Shown: one piece after another, positions 10,561 to 64,000 of the stretch
Layout: every line of letters starts with the position of its first letter
Numbering within the stretch: the first letter of the stretch is position 1
DNA from: Chitinophagales bacterium
GTDB lineage: Bacteria > Bacteroidota > Bacteroidia > Chitinophagales > LD1
Reading direction: 5' to 3'
NCBI GenBank assembly: GCA_016786765.1
Contig: JAEUUZ010000001.1
Span: 1 to 64,000, forward strand
Length of the DNA stretch: 64,000 nt
Position numbers and translations under genes: made by a program
Notes under the pieces: generated by a model
Databases searched by the model: none
What the model was told of the DNA's origin: nothing
What the model saw: only the letters and a program-made list of their open reading frames with translations

Positions 10561-10723
10561 TACAACATAGCTTAAATCTTTACTGTATTCCATTGTAAAG
10601 GTATCTATACGGATACTTGATTTTTACTTTTTTTACGATGCGTTTGGATTGCTAAATTACACTCATTTTTTACTAAATTATTTATTGACCTCAACGGTCT
10701 AATATATATGTTATTGTTAGAAA
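10561..10723. other. AT-rich convergent intergenic region
   Basis: Space between the convergent SIR2 and integrase genes. A short imperfect hairpin at about 10600-10617 (GTATC ... GATAC) is followed by T-rich sequence and could act as a weak terminator for the SIR2 gene. Nothing else is seen. Confidence 0.3.
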
Positions 10724-11953
10724 TTATAAACTAGATTCTTCTCGTATGATTTTCTCGTGAAAATCATCAATAATATCACTTTGGAGTGAGTCTAAATAAA
10801 TTTCAGTTGTTTTTGTATCTGAGTGGCCTAACATGTCAGAAATTGCTGCAATTGGTATACCTAAATTCTTGGCTCTAGTAGCGAAACTATGACGAGATAC
10901 ATAGCTAGTAAGATTTTCTTCAATACCACATAACTCGGCAATTTTCTTCAACTTTTTGTTGAATCGCTTTCTTGCCCATTCAACATCTTTGTATTGCTCT
11001 TCAAGTTTAATTCGTTTTATTATAGGAAATAGATAATCATCTTTTTTCTTTCCGTAAAGATAAAGGGTAAGTATGTTCTGTATTTCAGGAGTAATTTTAA
11101 TGTCATAGGGCTTATCAGTCTTTTGGCGTTGATAAAATATTCGCCCATCTATAATATTTGAAAGTTTTAATTGAGCAAGATCGGCAAAGGGCATTCCTCG
11201 CATAAAGAAGCTTATGAGGAAGTAATTCCTTGAATGAAATAATGGATCACTTTCACTAAGTTCAAGGTTAATAATATTCTTTATTGAGTCGATACTAATT
11301 GCTCTCTTACGCGTCTTAGTTATTTTGATTTGATAGCTTTCAAATGGGTATAGTTCTTTTTCAATAATTCCGGCTTTGATGGCTCGATTAAAAATTGCTC
11401 TGTAAGATCTCATGTAAGTAGCTAATCCATTATGAGCATTCCCTTTAGCGAAATGATTCTTTTCGAATTGTTTTAGAAAGTTGTAATTCAACTCTTGAAA
11501 TGTGAGGTCTTTACCTTTACAATAGGTTCGTAAAACTCCAAGCGATGATTTATAGGAACGGGCATTCCCAATTTTGTTTGCTTCTTTTAGTTCTTGAATC
11601 AGACGTTCTCCAAATTTGAAAAAAGATAACTTGTCCGCTTTTCCTATTATAATTTCCTTAAGTTCAAGAACTGAAAGGTTAGAAAGCTTCTTTTCTTCCT
11701 CTAATTTAGTAATAACATCAAGTGCTTCAGTTTTTCTTTTTTGTAACTGATTGTTTAATCTAGTCACAGATTCTGTCCCCGTATAAGATGACTTAATCAC
11801 CCGTTTATTTGAATCCCAGTCTTTTTCTAGGAGCGAAATTCCGGTATTGATTGGGCTACTTTTGCCCCAATGGACAATTCTCATGAGAAGAGGGTAAGTG
11901 CCATCTTTTTTCTTAATTCGGGTGTCGAGTGTGAGTACAATATTTGTTTTCAT
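10724..11953 (-). CDS. tyrosine recombinase / integrase (Bacteroidota type)
   Basis: 409 residues. An N-terminal Arm-type DNA-binding region (TLDTRIKKKDGTYPL start, typical of Bacteroidota integrases) is followed by a SAM-like core-binding domain (about 105-200) and the catalytic domain. Catalytic residues seen: Arg in FFMRGMPFADL (about 252), Lys in the KTDKPYDIKIT beta-hairpin, SYVSRHSFAT box (Arg about 356, with Tyr where many integrases have His, common in this group), LGHSDTKTTEIY with the nucleophile Tyr near 385. It catalyses site-specific integration and excision. The start codon lies about 160 bases from the tRNA fragment at 12112-12153, so it is very likely the enzyme that inserted the island there. 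Confidence 0.93.
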   Translation of the reverse strand: MKTNIVLTLDTRIKKKDGTYPLLMRIVHWGKSSPINTGISLLEKDWDSNKRVIKSSYTGTESVTRLNNQLQKRKTEALDVITKLEEEKKLSNLSVLELKEIIIGKADKLSFFKFGERLIQELKEANKIGNARSYKSSLGVLRTYCKGKDLTFQELNYNFLKQFEKNHFAKGNAHNGLATYMRSYRAIFNRAIKAGIIEKELYPFESYQIKITKTRKRAISIDSIKNIINLELSESDPLFHSRNYFLISFFMRGMPFADLAQLKLSNIIDGRIFYQRQKTDKPYDIKITPEIQNILTLYLYGKKKDDYLFPIIKRIKLEEQYKDVEWARKRFNKKLKKIAELCGIEENLTSYVSRHSFATRAKNLGIPIAAISDMLGHSDTKTTEIYLDSLQSDIIDDFHEKIIREESSL

Positions 11954-11983
11954 AGCAATGCAAAAATGGATATTTAATTTTTC

Positions 11984-12005
11984 TTTCGCAAGTATTTCGC
12001 AAGTA
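11984..12005. repeat. two tandem 11-bp repeats upstream of the integrase
   Basis: TTTCGCAAGTA occurs twice head-to-tail (11984-11994 and 11995-12005), between the integrase start and the att site. Direct repeats in this position often are arm-type integrase or excisionase binding sites, or an operator for the int promoter. Repeat is seen directly; function is inference. Confidence 0.6.
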
Positions 12006-12111
12006 AAATTGAGATTTATATGGGTTAATGTGAAATCATAAAATAAATAAATAGCTCTAAATGAGTTTTTTATGATTTATCTTGCTTTGTATTTTTTAAT
12101 ATATCCACTCT

Positions 12112-12233: not shown

Positions 12234-13754
12234 TTACTTATTGCGTAGTGGTTTCAACTTTTTCGCATTCCAACGTCTGTATATGTTCTCGTAAAGTTTT
12301 ATTTCTTCACTCAAAAGTGTTTGTTTCTTATTACTCCTTGCTTGTATTTGTAATGCCCAGTCTAATTCTACATTCGAAACGAAGTTGCTATCAATTGGAT
12401 TAACTTCATTTGGGAATTCACTTAATTTCGTTGCTATATACTTATATAAGTCAACCTCTTCTGAAATGGGCTGGTAACTGCTATCATTTGCTTTTTTCTC
12501 CAGCATAAGCGCCCAATTAATTTCATCTTGCATTTTTTTTGTCAATATAGAAAACGCTACACTATCATTTTTTGGTGAAGGTACAGCAGGTGGATTAAGC
12601 GATGTATTTGACATCTTTTCACCATTTTCAAGTTGCGTACTCAAATGTTTGACAGCATCTTGAGCGTTAGGAGAGGGACTATGTGGTTTTGACCAATAAG
12701 AAAAGTGTATAGGAACTTTGGGAGCCACTTTGTTTGGTGCTATGGAATTTGGTTGTGTATTGTTATTGAATTGCTGCGCACTCAACCTATTGGCAAAATT
12801 TTGATATTGGGTAGTCTCTTGTGCATTGGGGGTGTAGCCATTTTTTACTTTTTCTTCCAATTGTAAGGCCCATTTTATTTCTTGTTGCGAAGCGGTTGCA
12901 GCTACTGTATTTGCATCTTCTAAATTTGGGTTAGTATTTGCATTGAATTGTTGTCCGCTCAACCTTTTGGCCATATCTTGATATGCTTCAATTTCTTGCC
13001 CATTGGGTTGGTAGCCATTTTTTACTTTTTCCTCCAATAGTATGGCCCAATCTATTTCTTGTTGCGTAAGGGGTAAGGCTACTTTATCTAATGCAATGGA
13101 ATTTGGCTTAGTACTTTCTTTGGACTGTTGCGCGAGTAATCTTTTGAAAATATCTTCGTACTGTGCATTTTCTTGTGCATTTGGTGTATAGCCTTGACCT
13201 ACCATCATTTCCAATTGTTTAGACCATTCCAATTCTTTGTCCGATGGATTATTGCTTTGCGTTTTTACAGTTGTATCGGTATTTTTTTGTTGAAGATGTG
13301 GAGCGCTCTGTTCTTTGCTTTTGTGCTGATTCCATCTTTCGAAAATCTGCGCATATTTCTCAATTTCTTCATCTGTCGGAATTTTGCCCTGTTGAAAACT
13401 ATCCAAAAATTGGAGTGCCCACATCATCTCCTCATCTGATTCTGCTTTACTTTTATCGATAAGTACATTGTTTTTCTCTTGTTGTTGTTGTTGCTGATAT
13501 TGTTTATAAATAGCGGTATAACGTTCAATTTCTTCAACTGTTGTTCTATACCCCTCTTGAACATTTTGTTGTAATCCTAAAGCCCAATCTAAGTCGCTTT
13601 GTGAAGGAGCGGACGGAAGTAACTGCTGATTTGTATGCATTCTGTCGTTTGTTTTTTCGTTCGCACCCATTATCAGTATTTGCGAATTGGCCGAATGAAC
13701 TAAGCAAAACAGAAACAACCATATAAGTATAATACGCGATAGATATTTTTTCAT
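12234..13754 (-). CDS. secreted protein with seven ~40-residue helical repeats
   Basis: About 506 residues from the ATG at 13754, chosen because it begins a clean signal peptide (MKKYLSRIILIWLFLFCLVHSANSQ); an upstream ATG at 13784 would prefix 10 polar residues. The mature protein has seven copies of a unit of about 40 residues with the consensus (S/Q)xxExxWAxxLExxVxxGYxPxxxExxxYxxxxxRLxxQQ, separated by Asn/Pro/Gln-rich linkers. The repeat resembles a two-helix hairpin. I do not recognise a family, and no enzymatic motif is visible. An envelope scaffold or binding role is possible. It stands alone to the right of the tRNA fragment. Confidence 0.75.
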   Translation of the reverse strand: MKKYLSRIILIWLFLFCLVHSANSQILIMGANEKTNDRMHTNQQLLPSAPSQSDLDWALGLQQNVQEGYRTTVEEIERYTAIYKQYQQQQQQEKNNVLIDKSKAESDEEMMWALQFLDSFQQGKIPTDEEIEKYAQIFERWNQHKSKEQSAPHLQQKNTDTTVKTQSNNPSDKELEWSKQLEMMVGQGYTPNAQENAQYEDIFKRLLAQQSKESTKPNSIALDKVALPLTQQEIDWAILLEEKVKNGYQPNGQEIEAYQDMAKRLSGQQFNANTNPNLEDANTVAATASQQEIKWALQLEEKVKNGYTPNAQETTQYQNFANRLSAQQFNNNTQPNSIAPNKVAPKVPIHFSYWSKPHSPSPNAQDAVKHLSTQLENGEKMSNTSLNPPAVPSPKNDSVAFSILTKKMQDEINWALMLEKKANDSSYQPISEEVDLYKYIATKLSEFPNEVNPIDSNFVSNVELDWALQIQARSNKKQTLLSEEIKLYENIYRRWNAKKLKPLRNK

Positions 13755-13934
13755 TGCTGTAACCGGTTTTTCTATACTACACATTTCCGTTCTAATAGTT
13801 TAACATCTTCCTTTATTTTCAATAACTTATATGTGATTTACCTTTCATAGGACAAATGTTGATGTATATATGATTTTTTGGGAGAGGCTGTCGGAATCAG
13901 ATATATTCATCATTAAAACAAAATCAAAACAATT

Positions 13935-15245
13935 ATGATAAGACAGACCTTGGCATTGTTTGTAATACTGCTTTGTATGTCCACTGCAAATGGACAAAAA
14001 AATCCACCGGATCATTTTTTGGTGAGCTCTACTTTAATCAAGCAACATACAAAGGCAACCATTAGTGCTATTTGGAAAAAGAACCATATCCCTAAAGCCA
14101 TATTACCGGTAAGAAATGATGTGGATGTTTATGAGATTATTTACAAAGCTCCATGGATCGACAGTACAACGTGGATTAATTGCTCCGGAATTGTATATGT
14201 GCCGAAGTTAAAGAAAGGAAAGAAGGCTTCTACATTCATGTTTGGTCATGGTACAGAGATAAGAAAAGGAAGAAGTATTTCTGACGATGATTCCCAACAA
14301 GGGATTTGTTTAGGTTTTGCTGCCGATGGTTATTTTGCATTGTATCCAGATTATTACGGTATTGGAAAAGGGGATGGAAATCACTTATATCAGCATGCCT
14401 GGAGCGAGGGAATGGCTTTTATCTACATGCGCAAAGCGGTGGAAGAAATGAAAGCACAAGTTGGTGTTGAAACCAATGATCAATTATTTTTAACAGGCTA
14501 TTCGCAAGGCGGACATGCTTCGTTTGCAGCCCATAAATATTTTGAAGAAGTGAAAGATCCGCGATTTAAAGTAACAGCATCTTCACCAATGTCGGGCGCA
14601 TATGATATGACCGGAGAGCAAGCGAAATATATGTTTCAGAAATACCCTCGTCCGTTTTACTTGCCCTACTTGTTAATCTCTTACCAGGAGGCTTATAAAG
14701 TAATTAATACCGACAATATCTATTCGATTTTTAAATCGCCTTTCGATACTTTATTGCCTGGATTTTTTGGTGAAGTACGCGCTAAATCGTATGGCGATTT
14801 AGATAGAATTATGCCTCCAATTCCAAAAGATATAGTGAAAGATGAGTTGGTAGAGCAGTTTGTAAATAACCCGCAATTCAATTTTCTTTTAAGATTAAGA
14901 GAAAACAATTTGACCAATTGGAAGCCGGAAGCCCCGGTGCAATTGTGTTTCTGCAATGGCGACCGTGAAGTGAATTACAAAAACTCGGAAGTGGTATACA
15001 ATAACATGACCGCTATGGGCAAAAAAGACATTAAGCTAAATAATTTAAGTCCGAAGCTAGACCATAATACCTGTGCGGCTTTTGCAGTATTAGCAACTAA
15101 ATATTTCTTCGATCGTTATCGAAAACACGGCAAAAATCCGAAGATGAAAGACCTTCCTCCTTTCAAGAAGTTTCTTGTAGGAATCATCAAAAAGAAAATT
15201 GAAAAAGATTACGAGAAAACCGGAAGCGATCATGCGTATCGGTAA
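13935..15245 (+). CDS. secreted alpha/beta-hydrolase, lipase/esterase-like
   Basis: 436 residues with a signal peptide (MIRQTLALFVILLCMSTANGQ). The nucleophile elbow GYSQGGHA is at about residue 188, in the GxSxG form; FGHGTEIRKG upstream may form the oxyanion region, and LDHNTCA near residue 378 supplies a candidate catalytic His. The layout resembles secretory lipases and prolyl-oligopeptidase-like esterases that act on extracellular lipids or esters. The substrate is not evident. It is monocistronic, with a strong bidirectional terminator 20 bases downstream, shared with the convergent metH gene. Confidence 0.8.
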   Translation: MIRQTLALFVILLCMSTANGQKNPPDHFLVSSTLIKQHTKATISAIWKKNHIPKAILPVRNDVDVYEIIYKAPWIDSTTWINCSGIVYVPKLKKGKKASTFMFGHGTEIRKGRSISDDDSQQGICLGFAADGYFALYPDYYGIGKGDGNHLYQHAWSEGMAFIYMRKAVEEMKAQVGVETNDQLFLTGYSQGGHASFAAHKYFEEVKDPRFKVTASSPMSGAYDMTGEQAKYMFQKYPRPFYLPYLLISYQEAYKVINTDNIYSIFKSPFDTLLPGFFGEVRAKSYGDLDRIMPPIPKDIVKDELVEQFVNNPQFNFLLRLRENNLTNWKPEAPVQLCFCNGDREVNYKNSEVVYNNMTAMGKKDIKLNNLSPKLDHNTCAAFAVLATKYFFDRYRKHGKNPKMKDLPPFKKFLVGIIKKKIEKDYEKTGSDHAYR

Positions 15246-15265
15246 ACTTTAAAGTTATTGAACAT

Positions 15266-15296
15266 AAAAGGTCGTATGCTACATCCGACCTTTTTT
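15266..15296. terminator. bidirectional terminator between lipase and metH
   Basis: A hairpin with stem AAAAGGTCG / CGACCTTTT around an 11-base loop, with T run on the plus strand and A run on the other side. It sits between convergent genes and can serve both. Confidence 0.8.
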
Positions 15297-15299
15297 GTA

Positions 15300-18200
15300 T
15301 TAATAAGCAAGATTAGGTCTAAGCCATTTCTCCACTTCCTGAATATTTAGGCCACGTGCAGTGGCCAATTGCTCAATTTGATCTTTCTGTACTTTTCCTA
15401 CACCAAAGTATTTTATGTGCGGACTGGCAAAATAAAACCCGCTCACTGCAGCAGTTGGATACATAGCGTGACTTTCAGTTAATGTAATGCCTGTTTTGTT
15501 TTCTACATCCAACAATTCCCAAATCGTTTTCTTTTCAAAATGATCAGGGCAGGCTGCATAACCCGGTGCCGGACGAATACCCACATATTTTTCTTGAATC
15601 ATCTCTTCAATGCTCAGGCTTTCGTTTTCAGCATAGCCCCAGTATTCTGTCCTCACTTTTTTGTGTAACAACTCGGTGAAGGCTTCCGCCAAACGATCGG
15701 CTAATGCTTTAATCAAAATGGCAGAATAGTCATCGTGGTCCGCTTCATATTTAGCAATCCACTTTTCGATGCCAATGCCCGTGGTTACTGCAAATGCGCC
15801 TACATAATCTTTATTTGGAGAAATGAAATCTGCCAAACAAGTATTCGTTTGTGTTCCTTGCTTTTTTGTTTGCTGGCGAAGGAAATTAAACGCTTTGCCA
15901 TTCGCCATTTGCACTTGCTCATTCACCGATTTCGCTTCGAAAATGCCAAAGGTGGCATTAGCGGTTAAGCGGTTTTCAGCTATAATTGCTTTCAACATGG
16001 CTTGCGCATCTTCATATAGTTTCTTGGCTTCAGCCCCATAGCGCTCGTTCTCAAAAATACGAGGGAAAGTGCCGCTCATTTCCCATGTTGCAAAGAATGG
16101 CGACCAATCGATATACTCTGCTATTTCAGCTAAAGGATAATTGTTCAACACCTTTGTACCAAGAAGTTTTGGTGTTAGAATTACCTCTTTCTCCCAATCA
16201 ATTTTCAATTTGTTTTTCCTTGCTTCTTCAATGCTGATGTAGTCTACATTTGATTTTCTGTTGGCAAAATCATCACGAAGTTGTGCATACTCGGCATCCA
16301 ATTCTTCGATAAAAGAGGCTTTGTTATCGTCACTCAATAAGCTACTCGCTACCGTTACACTCTTCGAAGCATCTAGAACATGCACAATTGGCGCATTGTA
16401 GGCTTGTGCAATTTTAACGGCTGTATGTATCTTTGAAGTAGTAGCACCTCCAATCAATAAAGGAATCTTCATGCCCAAACGCTCCATTTCCGATGCTACA
16501 TGCACCATTTCATCGAGCGATGGCGTAATCAATCCACTTAATCCAATTATATCTACTTTTTGTTTTTGTGCTTCTTCCAAAATTTTATCGGCAGAAACCA
16601 TCACACCCAAATCCACAATTTCGTAGTTGTTACACGCTAACACAACACCCACAATATTTTTCCCAATATCGTGCACATCTCCTTTTACGGTAGCTAACAA
16701 AATCTTTCCAACGCCTCGCGTGTCTTGCACTACAGCATTTCTTTTTTCTTCTTCCAAGAAAGGCTGAAGGTAAGCCACTGCTTTCTTCATCACACGCGCA
16801 CTTTTCACCACTTGCGGCAAAAACATTTTACCTGAACCGAACAAGTCGCCCACAATGTTCATGCCGGCCATCAACGGACCTTCAATCACATGCAATGGAC
16901 GGCCGTATTTTACACGCGCTTCTTCTGTATCTTCATCAATAAATGTTGTGATGCCTTTCATTAACGCATGTGCCAAACGATCTTCAACTGAAGTTTTTCG
17001 CCATGCTTCATCCACTACTACCACTTTGCCTTTCTGCTTAATGGTTTCTGCAAACGAAAGCAATCGCTCTGTAGCATCATCACGTCTATCGAGCAATACA
17101 TCTTCTACATGCTCCAATAAGTCTTTCGGAATATCGTCATATACTTCCAACATCGATGGATTTACAATACCCATATCCATGCCGTGTTGGATGGCATGAT
17201 ACAGGAAGGCCGAGTGAATCGCTTCTCGCACGGTGTTGTTTCCACGGAACGAGAACGAAACATTGGATACTCCTCCACTTACTTTGGCATATGGTAGGTT
17301 CTCTTTAATCCATTTCGTGGCATTGAAGAAATCCAGCGCATTTTTGCGATGCTCTTCCATTCCCGTTCCTACCGGGAAAATATTCGGGTCGAAGATGATG
17401 TCTTCAGCTGGAAAGCCTACCTGTTGGGTTAGAATATTATAAGCTCTTTGACAGATTTCAATTCTTCTTTCATACGAATCGGCTTGTCCTTGTTCATCGA
17501 AAGCCATAACAATAACAGATGCACCATATTGCTTCACCAAATTCGCTTCACGTATAAATGCGGCCTCACCTCCCTTTAATGATATAGAGTTCACAATACC
17601 TTTACCTTGAATGCATTTCAAGCCTGCTTCAATAATATCCCACTTCGAAGAGTCAATCATAATAGGCACTCTAGAGATATCAGGCTCAGCAGCTATGAGG
17701 TTTAAGAAGGTTACCATCGACTCTTTTCCGTCAATCATACCCTCGTCCATGTTAATGTCAATCACCTGTGCTCCACCTTCTACTTGCTCGCGGGCCACAC
17801 TCAAGGCTTCATCAAATTTTTCTTCTTTGATTAATTTCAAGAATTTGGCTGAACCCGTTACGTTAGTTCGCTCACCAATGTTCATGAAGTTCGATTCAGG
17901 CGTAATGACCACTGGCTCTAAACCACTCAAACGCATGAATTGGATAGGCTGTGCTTTTTTACGAGGCGCATGTTTTTCTGCTACCTTTTTAAAGGCACGA
18001 ATATGCTCCGGTGTAGTACCGCAACAACCACCTATAATATTGACGAATCCGCTTTTGATAAACTCTTCCAATGCCTCTGCCATCATCTCAGGTGTTTCAT
18101 CGTACCCCCCGAAAGCGTTTGGTAGACCGGCATTCGGATAGGCACTTACCCAACATTGTGCAGTTTTTGAAATGGCTTCAATGTGCGGACGCATATCTTT

Positions 18201-57409: not shown

Positions 57410-58906
57410 ATGGCGCGTATTGGGGTTATTGGTTCGGGATTTTCGGGGATAAGTGCGGCTGCATATTTGTCGGCAGCAGGGCATGAGGTGCATGTGTTTG
57501 AAAAAAATAGTACAATTGGCGGACGTGCTCGTCAGCTTAAAACCGACAATGGTTATGTTTTTGATATGGGCCCGAGTTGGTATTGGATGCCCGGGGTTTT
57601 TGAAAAATTCTTTCAAGATTTTGGGTACAATGTTTCCGATTTTTATGCATTGAAATTGTTGGATCCGTCATTTGATGTGGTTTTTGGTGAAAAAAACACT
57701 ATGCATGTGCCCGAAAATTTTGAGAAGTTGTGTGCAATGTTTGAATCGATTGAATTGGGCAGTGCAGAAAAGTTGAAGTTGTTCATGCAGGAAGCGGAAT
57801 ATAAGTACAAAACGGGCATAGATAATTTGGTGTACAAGCCGGGTTTATCGCTCACTGAGTTTGCCGATATGGAGTTGATTCGTGGCGTATTCAGATTACA
57901 AGTGTTTTCTTCTTTCAGTAAGCATGTGCGCAGTTTTTTTCAGCATCCCAAACTAATTGCGCTGATGGAGTTCCCGGTGTTGTTTTTAGGTGCTATGCCA
58001 CAAGATACGCCAGCGCTCTATAGTTTGATGAATTATGCCGGATTGAAATTAGGGACTTGGTATCCGGAAGGTGGCTTTGGGAAAGTGGTAGAAGGTATGG
58101 CGGCTGTGGCCTCTAAACATGGTACTGTTTTTCATCTGAATGCCAATGTGCAGAAAATAGAGGTTGAAGAAGGCGAAGCAAAATCGTTGTTAGTGAATGG
58201 TGTTGCTGAGCACTTTGATGGTATTATTGCTGCTGCCGATTACCATCATGTAGAAAGCAAATTGTTGCCTGTTGCTTTGCGTAATTATGATGAGAAGTAT
58301 TGGGACAAAAAAACATTTGCCCCTTCATGCTTGATTTATTACATCGGTGTAAAAAAGAAGATTGATGGATTACAACATCATACGCTGTTTTTTGATGAAT
58401 TGTTAGATGAACATGCTGTTGAAATCTATAAACAACCACAATGGCCTGCCAAACCTTTGTTTTATGTGTGTTGCCCCTCAAAATCGGATGAAACGGTTGC
58501 TCCGGCCGGACATGAAAACATATTCCTATTGATGCCTATTGCTCCCGGATTAGAAGATTCGGAAGCGATGCGAGAAAAATACTTTCATATTATGATGGAT
58601 CGACTGGAAAAGCAAACAGGGGAAACTATTCGAGACTACATGGATTATAAGAAAAGTTATTGTGTGGCCGATTTTATCACAGATTATAATTCATATAAAG
58701 GGAATGCTTATGGCCTAGCCAATACCTTGATGCAAACAGCCATCCTAAAACCGAAGATTAAAAATAAAGCTGTAAGTAATTTATTCTATACCGGGCAGTT
58801 GACCGTGCCGGGACCCGGAGTGCCACCATCCATCATATCCGGAAAAATTGCAGCCGAACAATTATCTAAACATCTTAACGCTATTGCCCATGAAATCGCT
58901 ATTTGA
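57410..58906 (+). CDS. crtI: phytoene desaturase
   Basis: 498 residues. The FAD Rossmann motif is IGVIGSGFSGISAAAYLSAAG (near 4-24), with an FEKNSTIGGRA continuation. The C-terminal signature is LFYTGQLTVPGPGVPPSIIS with the Gly-rich CrtI end. It introduces double bonds into phytoene to give lycopene. First gene of the carotenoid operon; its stop overlaps the crtB start by 17 bases. Likely membrane-associated. Confidence 0.95.
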   Translation: MARIGVIGSGFSGISAAAYLSAAGHEVHVFEKNSTIGGRARQLKTDNGYVFDMGPSWYWMPGVFEKFFQDFGYNVSDFYALKLLDPSFDVVFGEKNTMHVPENFEKLCAMFESIELGSAEKLKLFMQEAEYKYKTGIDNLVYKPGLSLTEFADMELIRGVFRLQVFSSFSKHVRSFFQHPKLIALMEFPVLFLGAMPQDTPALYSLMNYAGLKLGTWYPEGGFGKVVEGMAAVASKHGTVFHLNANVQKIEVEEGEAKSLLVNGVAEHFDGIIAAADYHHVESKLLPVALRNYDEKYWDKKTFAPSCLIYYIGVKKKIDGLQHHTLFFDELLDEHAVEIYKQPQWPAKPLFYVCCPSKSDETVAPAGHENIFLLMPIAPGLEDSEAMREKYFHIMMDRLEKQTGETIRDYMDYKKSYCVADFITDYNSYKGNAYGLANTLMQTAILKPKIKNKAVSNLFYTGQLTVPGPGVPPSIISGKIAAEQLSKHLNAIAHEIAI

Positions 58907-59726
58907 CGAAGTTTCTGTTGAATGCAGTAAACTCACAACAAAGCGTTACAGCACCAGCTTCTCGCTTGGTATTTATTTCTTGAGTAAACGCATGCGTAAT
59001 CATATCTATGCTATTTACGGTTTTCTGCGTTTTGCCGATGAGATTGTAGATAGTTTTGAAGGTTATAATCAAACGCGATTATTTTCTCAATTCAAAGCGG
59101 CTACTTATGACGCATTGAACGATAAAATTTCTTTGAATCCCATTTTAAATGCGTTTCAGAACACCGTTCATCAAAATAACATCGACCACAGTTTGATTGA
59201 TATTTTCTTTCACAGTATGGAAATGGATTTGCAGAAAATGGATTATTCGGAGGAGAAATATGAGCAATATATTTTGGGCTCAGCCGAAGTAGTAGGGTTG
59301 ATGTGTTTGCAGGTATTTACAGAAGGGGATAAAATCAAGTATCAAAGTTTACAGCCTTTTGCCATGAAATTAGGTGCAGCTTTCCAGAAGATTAATTTCT
59401 TGCGCGATTTGCAAGCTGATTATGAAGGATTAGGCAGAACATACTTCCCAAATGTGGATATGACACGTTTCAATGCACAAACAAAGAAGAAAATTGAAGT
59501 GGAGATAGAACTCGATTTCAAAGAAGCATTAACAGGTATTAAATTGTTACCGGCATCTTCTAAAGGTGGTGTATACTTGGCTTATGTCTATTACTATGCA
59601 TTGTTCAATAAAATAAAACGTATTCCGGCAGAGCGTGTATTACTCGAACGTATTCGAATCAATAACCTGCGCAAATTTACTTTAATGTTGAATAGCTTAT
59701 TTCAATACAAACTTAAACTCGTTTAA
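58890..59726 (+). CDS. crtB: phytoene synthase
   Basis: 278 residues from the ATG at 58890 (MKSLFDEVSVECSKLTTKRY); an in-frame ATG at 58848 lies further inside crtI. Diphosphate/Mg motifs: DEIVD at 50-54 and NFLRDLQADYEGLGRTYFP near 168-186 (second Asp-rich motif). It joins two geranylgeranyl diphosphates to phytoene. Translation is probably coupled to crtI by the overlap. Confidence 0.95.
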   Translation: MKSLFDEVSVECSKLTTKRYSTSFSLGIYFLSKRMRNHIYAIYGFLRFADEIVDSFEGYNQTRLFSQFKAATYDALNDKISLNPILNAFQNTVHQNNIDHSLIDIFFHSMEMDLQKMDYSEEKYEQYILGSAEVVGLMCLQVFTEGDKIKYQSLQPFAMKLGAAFQKINFLRDLQADYEGLGRTYFPNVDMTRFNAQTKKKIEVEIELDFKEALTGIKLLPASSKGGVYLAYVYYYALFNKIKRIPAERVLLERIRINNLRKFTLMLNSLFQYKLKLV

Positions 59727-59735
59727 AATTCGCTA

Positions 59736-60194
59736 ATGGCCATTTATCAATATACCGCAGAACAGTTCCTCCCCATAAGCATTCGTAAGGCTTGGGATTT
59801 TTTTTCATCGCCCAAAAACCTTTCGGTGATTACTCCTCCGGAAATGGATTTTAAAATTCTGACAGCGCTCGATGATAAAGAAATTTATGATGGAATGCTT
59901 ATAGATTATACTGTTAAACCACTGCTTGGTGTTCCAATGCATTGGCAAACCAAGATTATCAATGTTAAGCCGCTGGAAGTATTTGCAGATACCCAATTAA
60001 AAGGTCCATATAAATTGTGGCATCATACCCATACCTTTGTTGAGAAAGATGGTGGTGTACTAATGAAAGACATTGTGCGGTATGAATTGCCCTTCGGTGT
60101 TTTAGGCGATTGGGTACACAGTTTGATTGTACGAAAGAAGATAGCATCTATTTTTGCTTATCGTAAGTTGGTGTTGGAAAAGCTATTTGTGTAG
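59736..60194 (+). CDS. SRPBCC-fold protein in the carotenoid operon
   Basis: 152 residues of the SRPBCC/coenzyme Q-binding type: FLPISIRKAWDFFSSPKNLS at the start, then LGVPMHWQTKI and GPYKLWHHTHTF. It fits a START-like hydrophobic-ligand pocket. Its place between crtB and crtZ, 9 and 3 bases from them, suggests handling of a carotenoid or isoprenoid intermediate. That role is inference; members of the family are often seen in Bacteroidota carotenoid clusters. Confidence 0.85.
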   Translation: MAIYQYTAEQFLPISIRKAWDFFSSPKNLSVITPPEMDFKILTALDDKEIYDGMLIDYTVKPLLGVPMHWQTKIINVKPLEVFADTQLKGPYKLWHHTHTFVEKDGGVLMKDIVRYELPFGVLGDWVHSLIVRKKIASIFAYRKLVLEKLFV

Positions 60195-60197
60195 ACA

Positions 60198-60650
60198 ATG
60201 ATGTATTGGAATATCATATATGTTTTACTCGCATTTTGCAGTATGGAGTTAGTGGCATGGTTTACCCATAAATATGTTATGCACGGTTTTTTGTGGTTTT
60301 TGCACGCAGATCATCATCAAAAAAATCCGACATCCTTTTTTGAGCGCAACGATTACTTCTTTGTTATTTTCGCAATTCCGGGCATTTTAGGATTATATTT
60401 TGGAATGCAGGCACATTATAATTTTCTATTCTGGATTGGCTTAGGCATTACGATTTATGGCTTTGCTTATTTCTTTATTCATGATATCTTTATTCATCAG
60501 CGATTTCGTTGGTTGAGATATACGGATAATGCCTATTTCAGAGCCATACGAAAGGCGCATAAAACACATCATAAGTACACCCAAAAGGAAGATGGAGAAT
60601 GCTTTGGTATGCTTTGGGTGCCTGTTGTTTATTTCAAAAAGGAGCGTTGA
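60198..60650 (+). CDS. crtZ: beta-carotene 3-hydroxylase
   Basis: 150 residues with four membrane helices. The di-iron His motifs are HKYVMH (24-29), HADHH (36-40), HDIFIH (95-100) and HKTHH (121-125), in the arrangement of CrtZ. It adds hydroxyl groups to beta-ionone rings, giving zeaxanthin from beta-carotene. It lies 3 bases after the SRPBCC gene and 1 base before the cyclase gene. Confidence 0.95.
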   Translation: MMYWNIIYVLLAFCSMELVAWFTHKYVMHGFLWFLHADHHQKNPTSFFERNDYFFVIFAIPGILGLYFGMQAHYNFLFWIGLGITIYGFAYFFIHDIFIHQRFRWLRYTDNAYFRAIRKAHKTHHKYTQKEDGECFGMLWVPVVYFKKER

Positions 60651-60651
60651 T

Positions 60652-61326
60652 ATGAAAGGGCTGTATTTACTTATAGACTTTTGTACGGTGATTGTTCCGT
60701 TTCTGTTTTCTTTTCATCCTAAGCTTCAATTTTACAAACATTTCAAAGCTTTTTTTCTTTCTTGTTTTACCGTTGGAACGTTGTTTGTGCTTTGGGATGT
60801 ATACTTTACTTCTATTGGTGTTTGGGGGTTTAATTCGGATTATTTAATTGGGATCTACTTCTTCAACTTACCCATTGAAGAAGTTCTTTTTTTTGTTTGT
60901 GTTCCATTTTCATGCGTATACAGTTATCACTGTTTGAATTTGTTTTACGACTTCAATATGGAGCAGAAAACTGAGCAACGAGTGGTGGCTATTCTTTCCA
61001 GTTTATTGCTATTCGTTGGCCTTGTTTTTTATGATAGATTATACACATCTGTTACATTCATAAGTTTAGCATTGCTGTTGGTATTCTTTTCGTTTATGAG
61101 AAGAACTTCGTGGTTAGGCCGACTGATGAACATCTATTTGTTTTTACTTTTACCTTTTTTTATTGTGAATGGAATCCTTACTGGCACAGGACTTGAGGCT
61201 CCGATTGTTTGGTATAACAATCACGAAAATTTAGGGATCAGACTTTTAACCATTCCCATTGAGGACGCTTTTTATGGCTTCGCGTTAATCTTGCTGAATG
61301 TGTTTTTTTATGAAAAGTGGAAGTAA
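60652..61326 (+). CDS. crtYcd: lycopene cyclase, fused CrtYc-CrtYd type
   Basis: 224 residues from the ATG at 60652; the longer upstream frame lies within crtZ. Six or seven membrane helices form two homologous halves: the first has FNLPIEEVLFFVCVPF near residue 74, the second has IPIEDAFYGFALIL near 205, both with the PxE(E/D) motif of heterodimeric-type lycopene beta-cyclases. The two halves are fused. It closes lycopene ends to beta-rings, so the operon has a full path from GGPP to zeaxanthin. Confidence 0.92.
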   Translation: MKGLYLLIDFCTVIVPFLFSFHPKLQFYKHFKAFFLSCFTVGTLFVLWDVYFTSIGVWGFNSDYLIGIYFFNLPIEEVLFFVCVPFSCVYSYHCLNLFYDFNMEQKTEQRVVAILSSLLLFVGLVFYDRLYTSVTFISLALLLVFFSFMRRTSWLGRLMNIYLFLLLPFFIVNGILTGTGLEAPIVWYNNHENLGIRLLTIPIEDAFYGFALILLNVFFYEKWK

Positions 61327-61329
61327 CAT

Positions 61330-62064
61330 CTACTTCACAAAACCTCTATCAATACCAAATTTTTTGTAGTTATCCAGTAAGGTTTTGGTAATGGTATAAT
61401 CAGAACTTTCTCGAAGGAATTCAACCGGCAGATTCATGTAATCGATAAACTGATCGTAGTATTCTTCCGGTAAATCGAATAGTTGTTTTTCTCTGAAATA
61501 GTCGAAAAGTTCACGGTATATTCTTCTGCGCTCATCATCTAAATATTGTTTGCGCAATTTGTTGCGTTCTTTGGCACGGGCACTTACTAAATCATAAATA
61601 GCAGAAATTGGCGACATAAATTCTATCTCCGGTTTCATCAATTCTCGAGGCATTGAGCCAAGATTTTTTCGTTCTTTCTCGATATCATCCAAGTCTTTTT
61701 TCGGGCGAACAATGACCGGTTGTGAAAGCGAAGTAGAAAGCGGGTTGAAGGTTAGATTGACAAAGTAGCTGCTACTTTCCGAAGTGCTATCGGCAACTGA
61801 AAAACGAATTGTTTTATATCCGGGAAAAAAAAGGTACAGTGTATCGTGCTTGTCGCAAGCCAATGAAAATCGCCCTTGCGCATCGGTCATGTACGACACA
61901 TTTTGTTCGGCTACAATCACGCTTACACCACTGATTGGGCGTTTGGTATAGCCGTCAATTACTTTTCCGGAAAGGGTTATGGATTGTGCTATAGCCGATG
62001 GAGCTATACATCCCAATAAGATGAACAGCAACAACGTTGTAAAGGTTGGAAGGCGTTTAATCAC
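61330..62064 (-). CDS. secreted protein with carboxypeptidase-regulatory-like domain
   Basis: 244 residues. Signal peptide (LLLFILLGCIAPSAIAQ) then a beta-sandwich typical of CarboxypepD_reg-like domains: ITLSGKVIDGYTKRPISGVS, MTDAQGRFSL and FFPGYKTI (about residues 28-108). The rest is helical and charged, with no domain I can name. In Bacteroidota such proteins are on the periplasmic or outer membrane side. It is convergent with crtYcd, 3 bases apart. Confidence 0.85.
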   Translation of the reverse strand: MIKRLPTFTTLLLFILLGCIAPSAIAQSITLSGKVIDGYTKRPISGVSVIVAEQNVSYMTDAQGRFSLACDKHDTLYLFFPGYKTIRFSVADSTSESSSYFVNLTFNPLSTSLSQPVIVRPKKDLDDIEKERKNLGSMPRELMKPEIEFMSPISAIYDLVSARAKERNKLRKQYLDDERRRIYRELFDYFREKQLFDLPEEYYDQFIDYMNLPVEFLRESSDYTITKTLLDNYKKFGIDRGFVK

Positions 62065-62115: not shown

Positions 62116-62146
62116 CTTGTGTTTTTGCCGGAAAACTTTACTTTTG
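62116..62146 (+). promoter_or_regulatory. promoter of the fluoride riboswitch transcript
   Basis: CTTG (62116-62119), 19 bases, then TACTTTTG (62139-62146). This fits the Bacteroidota promoter TTTG-N19-TAnnTTTG well (one mismatch in -33) and puts the transcript start directly before the aptamer. Confidence 0.7.
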
Positions 62147-62149
62147 AAG

Positions 62150-62206
62150 GACAGGAAATGGTGTCTTCCTGATATAAACCGCCCTAAAAAGCTGATGGCG
62201 CCTGGT
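62150..62206 (+). promoter_or_regulatory. fluoride riboswitch (crcB motif)
   Basis: The sequence shows P1 strands AGGAA / TTCCT around ATGGTGTC, then ATAAACCGCC, a short loop, and GCTGATGGCGCCTGG. These correspond to the GGnGAUGG, AACCGCC and CUGAUGGCxCCU conserved blocks of fluoride-sensing RNAs and allow the expected pseudoknot. It lies 33 bases before the start codon of a CLC-type antiporter, so it should switch on the exporter when fluoride is bound. Confidence 0.88.
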
Positions 62207-62238
62207 TATTCAATGTTAAGCGCATTCAATCAGGTAGT

Positions 62239-63519
62239 ATGTCAACTTTAGATTCAAAACAAAACAGTTTAGCTCAACAGTGGCCGAGTATTGTCTACTT
62301 ATTCAAGTGGATTTTCTTGTGTTCCATAATAGGAGTAGTAGTGGGCTCTGCTTCAGCCGTTTTCTTGATTTCGCTGGAATGGGTAACTCAATTTCGAGAA
62401 GCTCATGTATGGCTAATTGCACTCTTGCCATTAGCTGGATTCGGCATGGGATTGCTCTACCATTATTACGGAAATGAAGTTGAATCCGGTAATAATTTGC
62501 TGATTGATTCCATTCATTATCCATCACAAAAAATACCGTTTCGAATAGCACCCTTTGTTTACTTCGCAACAATAGTTACGCATTTATTTGGCGGTTCGGC
62601 CGGAAGGGAGGGAACTGCCTTGCAAATGGCCGGAGGAATAATGGATCCTATTGGTCGATGGATGAAGTTGGGTGATGAAGATCGGAGAGTATTGTTGATT
62701 GCTTCTATAGCTGCCGGTTTTGGGTCTGTTTTCGGAACACCCTTGGCTGGTGCGGTTTTCAGCATGGAGTTTTTTCTTACCGGACGAATCCGTTACAATG
62801 CAATTTTTCCGGCATTTCTAGCCGCTATCATTGCCAATTACGTAACCATACTCTGGCCTGCACAGCATACGCATTATAGTATTACAAGTATTCCAGCTGT
62901 AAATCCATTGAATTTAATCTACAGTTTGTTGGCAGGAATAGTCTTTGGACTGTGTGCATTATTGTTTACAAAATTCATGCATAGTTTAACCGCATTTTTC
63001 AAATCAAAAATTAGCTATCCGCCACTTCGTCCGTTTGTTGGAGGTAGTATTGTTGCACTTGCAGTTTATTCACTTGGAACAACAAAATATATTGGATTGG
63101 GTATTCCTTCTATTGTTGATTCGTTTAATCACATGCAGCCCACATATGTATTTGCATTGAAGATACTGTTAACAGTGATAACACTTTCAGCTGGCTTTAA
63201 AGGAGGAGAAGTAACACCTTTGTTTTTTATTGGCGCCACATTTGGTAGTGCATTGAGCTGTTGTATTCCTTTGCCAACAGCACTTTTAGCAGGTATGGGT
63301 TTTGTGGCTGTATTTGCCGGAGCCACAAATACTCCCTTGGCATGTATGTTGATGGGGATAGAATTGTTTGGTGTTGAAAGCGGTTTGTATATCGCCATTT
63401 CCTGTGTTATGGCCTATTTAGTTTCAGGGCATAACAGCATATATGGGAAGCAACGTATAGGTGAAGCCAAATCGGAGCATTGGAAACACCATGAAGGTAA
63501 TTCGATAAGCGAACTTTAA
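62239..63519 (+). CDS. CLC-F type fluoride/proton antiporter
   Basis: 426 residues with about 10-12 membrane helices of the ClC fold. GGSAGREGTALQMAGG (near 118-133) has GREGT where chloride ClCs have GREGP, and GGEVTPLFFIG (near 320) and GATNTPLACM follow; these are the traits of the fluoride-exporting CLC-F clade. The fluoride riboswitch in its leader supports this directly. It expels fluoride in exchange for protons. The C-terminus is short, with no CBS domains. A channel-like gene follows 11 bases later. Confidence 0.93.
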   Translation: MSTLDSKQNSLAQQWPSIVYLFKWIFLCSIIGVVVGSASAVFLISLEWVTQFREAHVWLIALLPLAGFGMGLLYHYYGNEVESGNNLLIDSIHYPSQKIPFRIAPFVYFATIVTHLFGGSAGREGTALQMAGGIMDPIGRWMKLGDEDRRVLLIASIAAGFGSVFGTPLAGAVFSMEFFLTGRIRYNAIFPAFLAAIIANYVTILWPAQHTHYSITSIPAVNPLNLIYSLLAGIVFGLCALLFTKFMHSLTAFFKSKISYPPLRPFVGGSIVALAVYSLGTTKYIGLGIPSIVDSFNHMQPTYVFALKILLTVITLSAGFKGGEVTPLFFIGATFGSALSCCIPLPTALLAGMGFVAVFAGATNTPLACMLMGIELFGVESGLYIAISCVMAYLVSGHNSIYGKQRIGEAKSEHWKHHEGNSISEL

Positions 63520-63530
63520 ATTCTTTAGCA

Positions 63531-64000
63531 ATGAATAAGAACAATAAATTATGGTTGGCTGTGGCGATGGATGTAATGATGATTGCGCTGATTTTGGTGA
63601 ACATCAACCTCATTATTTTCGATAGTTTTTTCAGTATTCATGTTATCTCAGGATTTTTTCAAAACTACATTCCTTGGTTTTTTGAATTTTATAATACCAA
63701 CATTCATCAGCATTTTGCGGTGATTGATTTGTGTTTTGTAGCGATATTTTTAATCGAATTTATTGCGCGTTGGGCCAGAGCTGCCTATCGTAAAACCTAC
63801 GATAAATGGTATTTCTTTCCTTTTTTCTTTTGGTATGATGCTTTAGGTTGTGTTCCAGTAGCGGGGTTTCGATGGTTGCGTTTAATTCGGATTTTCTCGT
63901 TGCTTATTCGTATGCAGAAACTTGGTTTAGTGAATTGGCGAAAGACCGGATTTTACAGCTATTTCGTGCGGTACTCTAATATTTTTATTGAGGAAATTTC
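63531..64000 (+). CDS. ion-channel-like membrane protein, voltage-sensor type (3' end outside window)
   Basis: An open frame from the ATG at 63531 to the window end, 156 residues so far. Membrane segments are visible at about 8-30, 62-82 and around 100-125. RWLRLIRIFSLLIRMQKLG resembles an S4 voltage-sensor helix with Arg at every third or fourth place. FFWYDALGCVPVAGFRW precedes it. This fits the ion transport superfamily. It begins 11 bases after the fluoride antiporter and may share its riboswitch-controlled transcript. Full identity needs the missing end. Confidence 0.65.
   Translation, partial: MNKNNKLWLAVAMDVMMIALILVNINLIIFDSFFSIHVISGFFQNYIPWFFEFYNTNIHQHFAVIDLCFVAIFLIEFIARWARAAYRKTYDKWYFFPFFFWYDALGCVPVAGFRWLRLIRIFSLLIRMQKLGLVNWRKTGFYSYFVRYSNIFIEEI

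Follow-up and report, generated by a model that had tools for sequence, protein, structure and literature searches.

At the end of a 64,000-nucleotide stretch of a Chitinophagales genome (the window, positions 1 to 64,000 of contig JAEUUZ010000001.1), a fluoride riboswitch precedes the gene of a CLC-F exporter, and a second gene, whose product has an arginine-rich S4 helix, starts directly behind it. The initial annotation called this second product channel-like and pointed out that co-transcription would place an ion channel under fluoride control. Does the second gene belong to the fluoride response, and what kind of protein does it encode? The reading favored here, at a probability of roughly three in four, is a known type of fluoride-detoxification unit with a translational switch, followed by an unrelated gene of a pore-less voltage-sensor type.

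The fluoride switch and its exporter

The unit is bounded upstream by a divergent gene on the minus strand (61330–62064) that encodes a protein with a CarboxypepD_reg-like domain (PF13715, 44.2 bits). Elsewhere in the window, a plus-strand run of genes from 57410 to 61326 presumably serves carotenoid synthesis (desaturase, phytoene synthase, hydroxylase and cyclase); the one protein of this run that was scanned, at 60198–60647, has no Pfam match. The promoter of the unit spans 62117–62146 on the plus strand and consists of TTG at 62117–62119, a 19-base spacer, and TACTTTTG at 62139–62146, an exact TAnnTTTG. We take TTG-N19-TAnnTTTG to be the Bacteroidota promoter form. Among the over-cut-off aptamer copies of the order, with L066 left out for its few upstream bases, a TAnnTTTG-like box with at most one mismatch lies at −20 to +4 in 22 of 25 copies (this one included), compared with 25% of shuffles. 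The well-formed promoter seen in the initial annotation is borne out by this exact element and by its recurrence, and sequence and conservation suggest that it fires directly ahead of the aptamer.

A covariance search with RF01734 recovers the crcB-type aptamer that had also been proposed. The match covers 62145–62211 on the plus strand, scores 40.4 bits against a gathering score of 34 (E 9.5e-08), and is the single one in the 3.62 Mb genome. The window holds RNA elements of other kinds as well: a SAM riboswitch (RF00162, 18996–19087, minus strand, 69.9 bits) and a Flavo-1 RNA (RF01705, 53130–53215, minus strand) whose 42.5 bits lie just over the cut-off of 42. Within the fluoride aptamer, the pseudoknot strands GGUGU (62160–62164) and GCGCC (62198–62202) form all five pairs. 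All five are likewise kept in 26 of 26 aptamers of the order, a set made up of the over-cut-off RF01734 matches from 198 genomes, this one included; aptamers L067, L068, L071 and L072, which fall below the curated cut-off, were left out of the pseudoknot and stem comparison.

The 3' strand of the pseudoknot has a second potential partner. CCUGGUU (62201–62207) is complementary to AAUCAGG (62228–62234) over 7 bp, one of them a G-U pair, and the resulting stem ends four bases 5' of the CLC-F start codon. The bases CC at 62201–62202 are common to both pairings, which makes pseudoknot and stem mutually exclusive. A stem beginning at the pseudoknot CC is found in 22 of the 26 order aptamers (21 of 25 when this one is set aside), and 20 of the 22 stems end 0–6 bases 5' of an in-frame ATG; of the remaining two, one stem overlaps an in-frame ATG and one has no ATG in reach. 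Several stem positions show changes on both sides, position 4 being A-U in 11 aptamers, G-C in 6 and G-U in 5. For 20 of the 26, no more than 5 in 500 shuffles equal the stem; for the stem of the window the figure is 21 of 500. Scripted scoring finds no stem in four aptamers, and two of these exceptions (L044 and L048), by eye, have a longer complement that includes the ATG itself and extends past the scored stretch. The minimum-energy fold of the whole leader is no better than that of shuffles (z 0.06), so the competing stem rests on the comparison across genomes.

This element shares with fluoride riboswitches of the RF01734 class its range of score, its pseudoknot and its place ahead of a fluoride exporter gene. 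It differs in that no terminator-type platform is seen; instead, the stem formed by the pseudoknot strand ends beside the start codon. Because the two pairings exclude each other and the stem is conserved next to the ATG, we infer control at the start of translation rather than at termination, and the switch most likely acts on CLC-F translation, not transcription. Without fluoride, the 3' strand of the aptamer would pair with bases 5' of the start codon and hinder ribosome entry. With fluoride, the pseudoknot would form and free the start, allowing CLC-F to be made and fluoride to be exported. In the same order, aptamers at L045, L048, L049, L057, L062, L065 and L066 stand, by eye, ahead of small CrcB/Fluc-like proteins, and the same kind of competing stem occurs at L045, L049, L057 and L066.

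The gene behind the switch (62239–63519, plus strand) encodes a CLC protein of 426 aa that matches PF00654 with 246.6 bits (cut-off 24.8). Among solved structures it is closest to the CLC-F of 6d0j, at 207.6 bits over residues 26–418, whereas the best chloride CLC reaches 48.9 bits. The protein shares the GGSAGREG stretch with the solved CLC-F structures (6d0j, 6d0k, 6d0n) and differs from them in having Thr rather than Val after GREG; otherwise it is an ordinary member. The GREGT signature and the family assignment given in the initial annotation therefore stand, and the protein is by its sequence a CLC-F fluoride/proton antiporter and a predicted fluoride exporter. Used as a query against its own genome, it finds one CLC-F match, and a search of the genome for CrcB/Fluc (PF02537) gives none. 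Riboswitch, promoter and CLC-F together are a real fluoride-detoxification unit of a known, routine kind.

A likely voltage-sensor fold in place of a channel

The second gene begins with the ATG at 63531, 11 bases past the CLC-F stop. The window cuts it off at 64000, after residue 156; the contig completes it on the right as a frame of 328 aa from 63531 to 64517 on the plus strand. Its stop overlaps that of a convergent gene, which closes off the two-gene unit. Farther downstream on the contig, as judged by eye, L002 holds two similar lipoprotein-like tandem ORFs (10636–11175 and 11530–12069) and a series of tandem genes for repeat proteins that resemble one another at the C terminus (12770–14185, 14200–15627, and 15749 onward).

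The complete protein has four helices, S1 at about residues 7–35, S2 at 59–86, S3 at 95–110 and S4 at 112–131, followed by some 190 helical residues. The stretch between S1 and S2 (31–61) carries no Lys or Arg, while those between S2 and S3 and after S4 are rich in both, a distribution that fits N- and C-terminal ends that are both cytoplasmic. Beyond residue 135, 19-residue hydropathy peaks at 1.08 in the window protein and at 1.45 among relatives (in the 49 of 53 where the cut could be placed), values that leave no clear S5–S6, and the secondary-structure pattern of a homologue model shows no pore helices either. Thus, of the initial description, the arginine-rich S4 (R114, R117, R120 and R127) and the 11-base gap are present as stated, and the ion channel is not supported, since S1–S4 without an S5–S6 pore does not fit that name. 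The gene product would be a membrane protein with a voltage-sensor-type S1–S4 and a long helical cytoplasmic part, without a pore.

Could the pore lie on a separate protein, the second gene coding for just the sensor part of a split channel? One PF00520 match in the genome covers pore-region positions 132–234 only (contig C19, 25.3 bits), as such a partner might. It sits on another contig, however, and no recurrent channel partner appears, by clustering and by eye, near the 80 named loci of the family described below. A split channel is therefore highly improbable.

Pfam finds nothing over cut-off on the full protein. Ion_trans (PF00520) reaches 10 of the required 25 bits over residues 13–133, and at E ≤ 0.01 it is found in 3 of 53 aligned members. 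As a candidate for the C-terminal part, DUF445 was rejected at 15.2 bits against a cut-off of 33.8, with 0 of 53 members matching at E ≤ 0.01. Searches for solved relatives by sequence gave none that is credible, either for the single window protein or for the family profile, and single-sequence structure prediction of the window protein gave no usable model (pLDDT 41.4).

Two alignments of the family carry the comparison instead. The broader one has 53 rows, namely the window fragment and 52 of 80 named loci, and the other has 33 rows, the window protein and 32 of the 33 further family loci from whole genomes (all but L013). The broader profile aligns with the six-transmembrane channels of the same order over S1–S4 with 96.2% probability (hhalign, E 2.4e-09). 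Two of those channel rows (L020 and L042) had first been met as weak family matches, their real identity being six-transmembrane channels, and for this reason they were removed for a repeat comparison, which gives 95.1% (E 3.2e-08) over S1–S3 only; a control with a CLC alignment gives 0.2%. Homologue L102, 42% identical to the window protein, yields a structure model with a pLDDT of 91.9. Foldseek finds no PDB match to it at E ≤ 0.001, and its top rows are chemoreceptor helices. With VIA-align, 47 of the 50 rows shown are voltage-gated channels. The alignment to NavMs (6yz2) covers model residues 13–131 with a Z of 8.2, middling for helical bundles, and an rmsd of 2.7 over 94 residues.

The residues expected of a voltage sensor are in place. 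The window protein has F73 and E76 in S2 (F-x2-E), D103 and P109 in S3 (D-x5-P), and R114, R117 and R120 in S4. Across the 53 rows, the S1 Asp is kept in 53, the S2 acid is Glu in 51 and Asp in 2, and the S3 Asp and Pro are kept in all 53, the S3 residues being partly contained in the peptide patterns that found these loci. The three S4 arginines, which were not in those patterns, are kept in 53 of 53, the window protein included. The profile match to six-transmembrane channels and the confident homologue model together make S1–S4 a probable voltage-sensor domain, and the second protein likely has a voltage-sensor fold.

A fold may outlive its function, and S1–S4 could have lost voltage sensing to serve as a membrane anchor or a ligand sensor. 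The 33-row alignment gives this idea some footing: R120 is kept in all 33, R117 in 26 and R114 in 23 (Lys in 3, Asn in 7), and in 10 members R114, R117 or both are replaced. These losses point to one branch with a weakened S4. In the branch L035–L041 (family f72 of the order), the first two arginines are replaced by Asn and by Gly or Ala, and R120 is kept. The invariant arginines of the 53-row alignment, with its S2 acid and S3 Asp and Pro, speak against such a loss, which is a tentative proposal, though one of some weight. On the favored reading, a voltage-sensor-type protein without a pore, S1–S4 would most likely pass a signal of membrane potential, or of another membrane state, to the cytoplasmic helices.

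The known systems closest to this protein differ from it in instructive ways. It has S2 F-x2-E, S3 D-x5-P and S4 R-x2-R-x2-R in common with the voltage-sensor domains of bacterial Na/Ca and K channels (NavMs, NavAb, Kv-type), and in place of their S5–S6 it has the long helical cytoplasmic part. With the eukaryotic Hv1, voltage-sensing phosphatases and TMEM266, it shares a voltage-sensor-type domain without a pore, whereas it is bacterial and carries a different cytoplasmic part. A phosphatase domain after the sensor is found neither in the full protein (Pfam, E ≤ 1) nor in the 53 members (0.01). The S4 signature of Hv1 is R-x-W-R; the window protein reads R-W-L-R, with its Trp one residue early, and so departs from the Hv1 spacing. 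A 2023 review (PMC10377628) describes the S4 Trp as invariant among Hv1 proteins and as missing from the S4 of prokaryotes. A signalling role of the second protein by analogy with the eukaryotic pore-less sensors may be proposed, and it is the least supported element of the favored reading.

Linkage to the exporter and fluoride control

The family reaches far beyond this locus. Of 30 genomes in the taxonomic family, 4 have it, as do 23 of 198 in the order and 13 of 395 in the phylum, own genome counted and one match in each of the latter two sets being a weak one to a six-transmembrane channel. A scan of species genomes finds at least 538 bacterial stretches that encode relatives, of which 80 named loci were kept, many of them metagenome-assembled. 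By record titles, these come from Cytophagales, Balneolales, Salinibacter, Salinivenus, Calditrichota, Alcanivorax, Marinobacter, Myxococcota and others.

If exporter and sensor were a functional pair, deliberately co-made under fluoride, the second protein would sense or relieve the change in potential or pH that arises from the electrogenic fluoride/proton swap of CLC-F. The tight gap with no clear promoter or terminator in it, the membrane location of both proteins, and the convergent gene that closes the unit all agree with this proposal. The comparative evidence speaks against it. No CLC gene lies near the 33 family loci from other whole genomes (1.5 kb flanks) or near the 80 named loci kept from the at least 538 stretches (flanks up to 6 kb), some flanks being shorter where contigs end. 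Conversely, 0 of 58 riboswitch/CLC loci (L044–L101) contain a family member. At 25 CLC-F loci of the order (L046, L094 and L095 left out), what follows CLC-F is a varied set of genes or a convergent one, with no member of this family among them, and in other lineages the family gene lies tightly next to other, unrelated genes. A conserved linkage is thus rejected, with the pairing seen once among the loci compared, and a functional pair is improbable. The one other genome of the genus that was covered, 87% complete, matches neither CLC-F nor the second protein. Among the genomes compared, only this one has the gene behind CLC-F, and the second protein is accordingly probably not for fluoride handling.

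The neighbors of the family were also considered as a clue to its function and discarded, as they differ in each lineage. By eye, the gene after the voltage-sensor gene is Fe-S-enzyme-like at several loci, being HemW-like at L110, L127 and L173, QueG-like at L109, L111 and L116, and NadA-like at L140, L144, L153 and L174; gaps are often under 25 bases in the HemW-like and QueG-like sets.

A terminator or promoter between the two genes would have separated them, and no terminator and no clear promoter is seen there. The single terminator-like site, at 63380–63395, falls within the CLC-F coding region (1 site, against 2.6 expected), and no TAnnTTTG box with at most one mismatch and a TTG 17–23 bases upstream occurs in 63351–63535. 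Given this and the 11-base gap, a joint transcript is plausible; the polymerase would then read through the 11 bases into the second gene. A different account gives the second gene its own promoter inside the end of the CLC-F coding region and no fluoride control at all. A sigma-70-like site at 63337–63364 matches 10 of 12 positions, and a switch that gates translation of the first gene agrees with independence of the second. Such sites are, however, within chance (7 found, 7.5 expected from shuffles), and the absence of a Bacteroidota-type promoter in the interval just given counts against it as well, making a separate promoter rather unlikely. On a joint transcript, a switch that gates the translation of the first gene would leave translational coupling or mRNA stability as the only routes by which fluoride could affect the second. 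It is therefore possible that the second gene is under fluoride control only indirectly, and fluoride control of its product, if any, is probably incidental.

Possible pore-less sensors in bacteria

The 2023 review holds that every prokaryotic voltage-sensing domain known so far is joined to a pore domain, and from this it reasons that sensors without a pore first appeared in early eukaryotes (PMC10377628). A 2024 review reports that neither bacteria nor archaea have been found to possess Hv channels (PMC13095418). The open PMC literature yielded no description of a prokaryotic pore-less voltage sensor; an earlier report may exist in subscription papers or preprints. Against this background, the second gene may represent a broad bacterial family, hitherto overlooked, of voltage sensors without a pore, in which S1–S4 would drive a long helical cytoplasmic module in Bacteroidota, Balneolales, Salinibacter-type bacteria, Calditrichota and marine Gammaproteobacteria, and which in this genome was possibly brought under fluoride control. 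From sequence comparison and the homologue model, we give this proposal even odds.

For the order itself, the conserved start-codon stem offers a clear, testable account of how its fluoride switches work. The voltage-sensor-like family outweighs the routine riboswitch and exporter in interest. If the proposal is true, bacteria too have stand-alone voltage sensing, so far regarded as an invention of eukaryotes, and cultivable Alcanivorax, Marinobacter and Salinibacter would lend themselves to its study. A bacterial family that combines all three leading S4 arginines with the S2 acid and the S3 Asp and Pro but has no pore would reopen the question of where pore-less sensors originated, and would provide small, culturable models of how bacteria signal through membrane potential.
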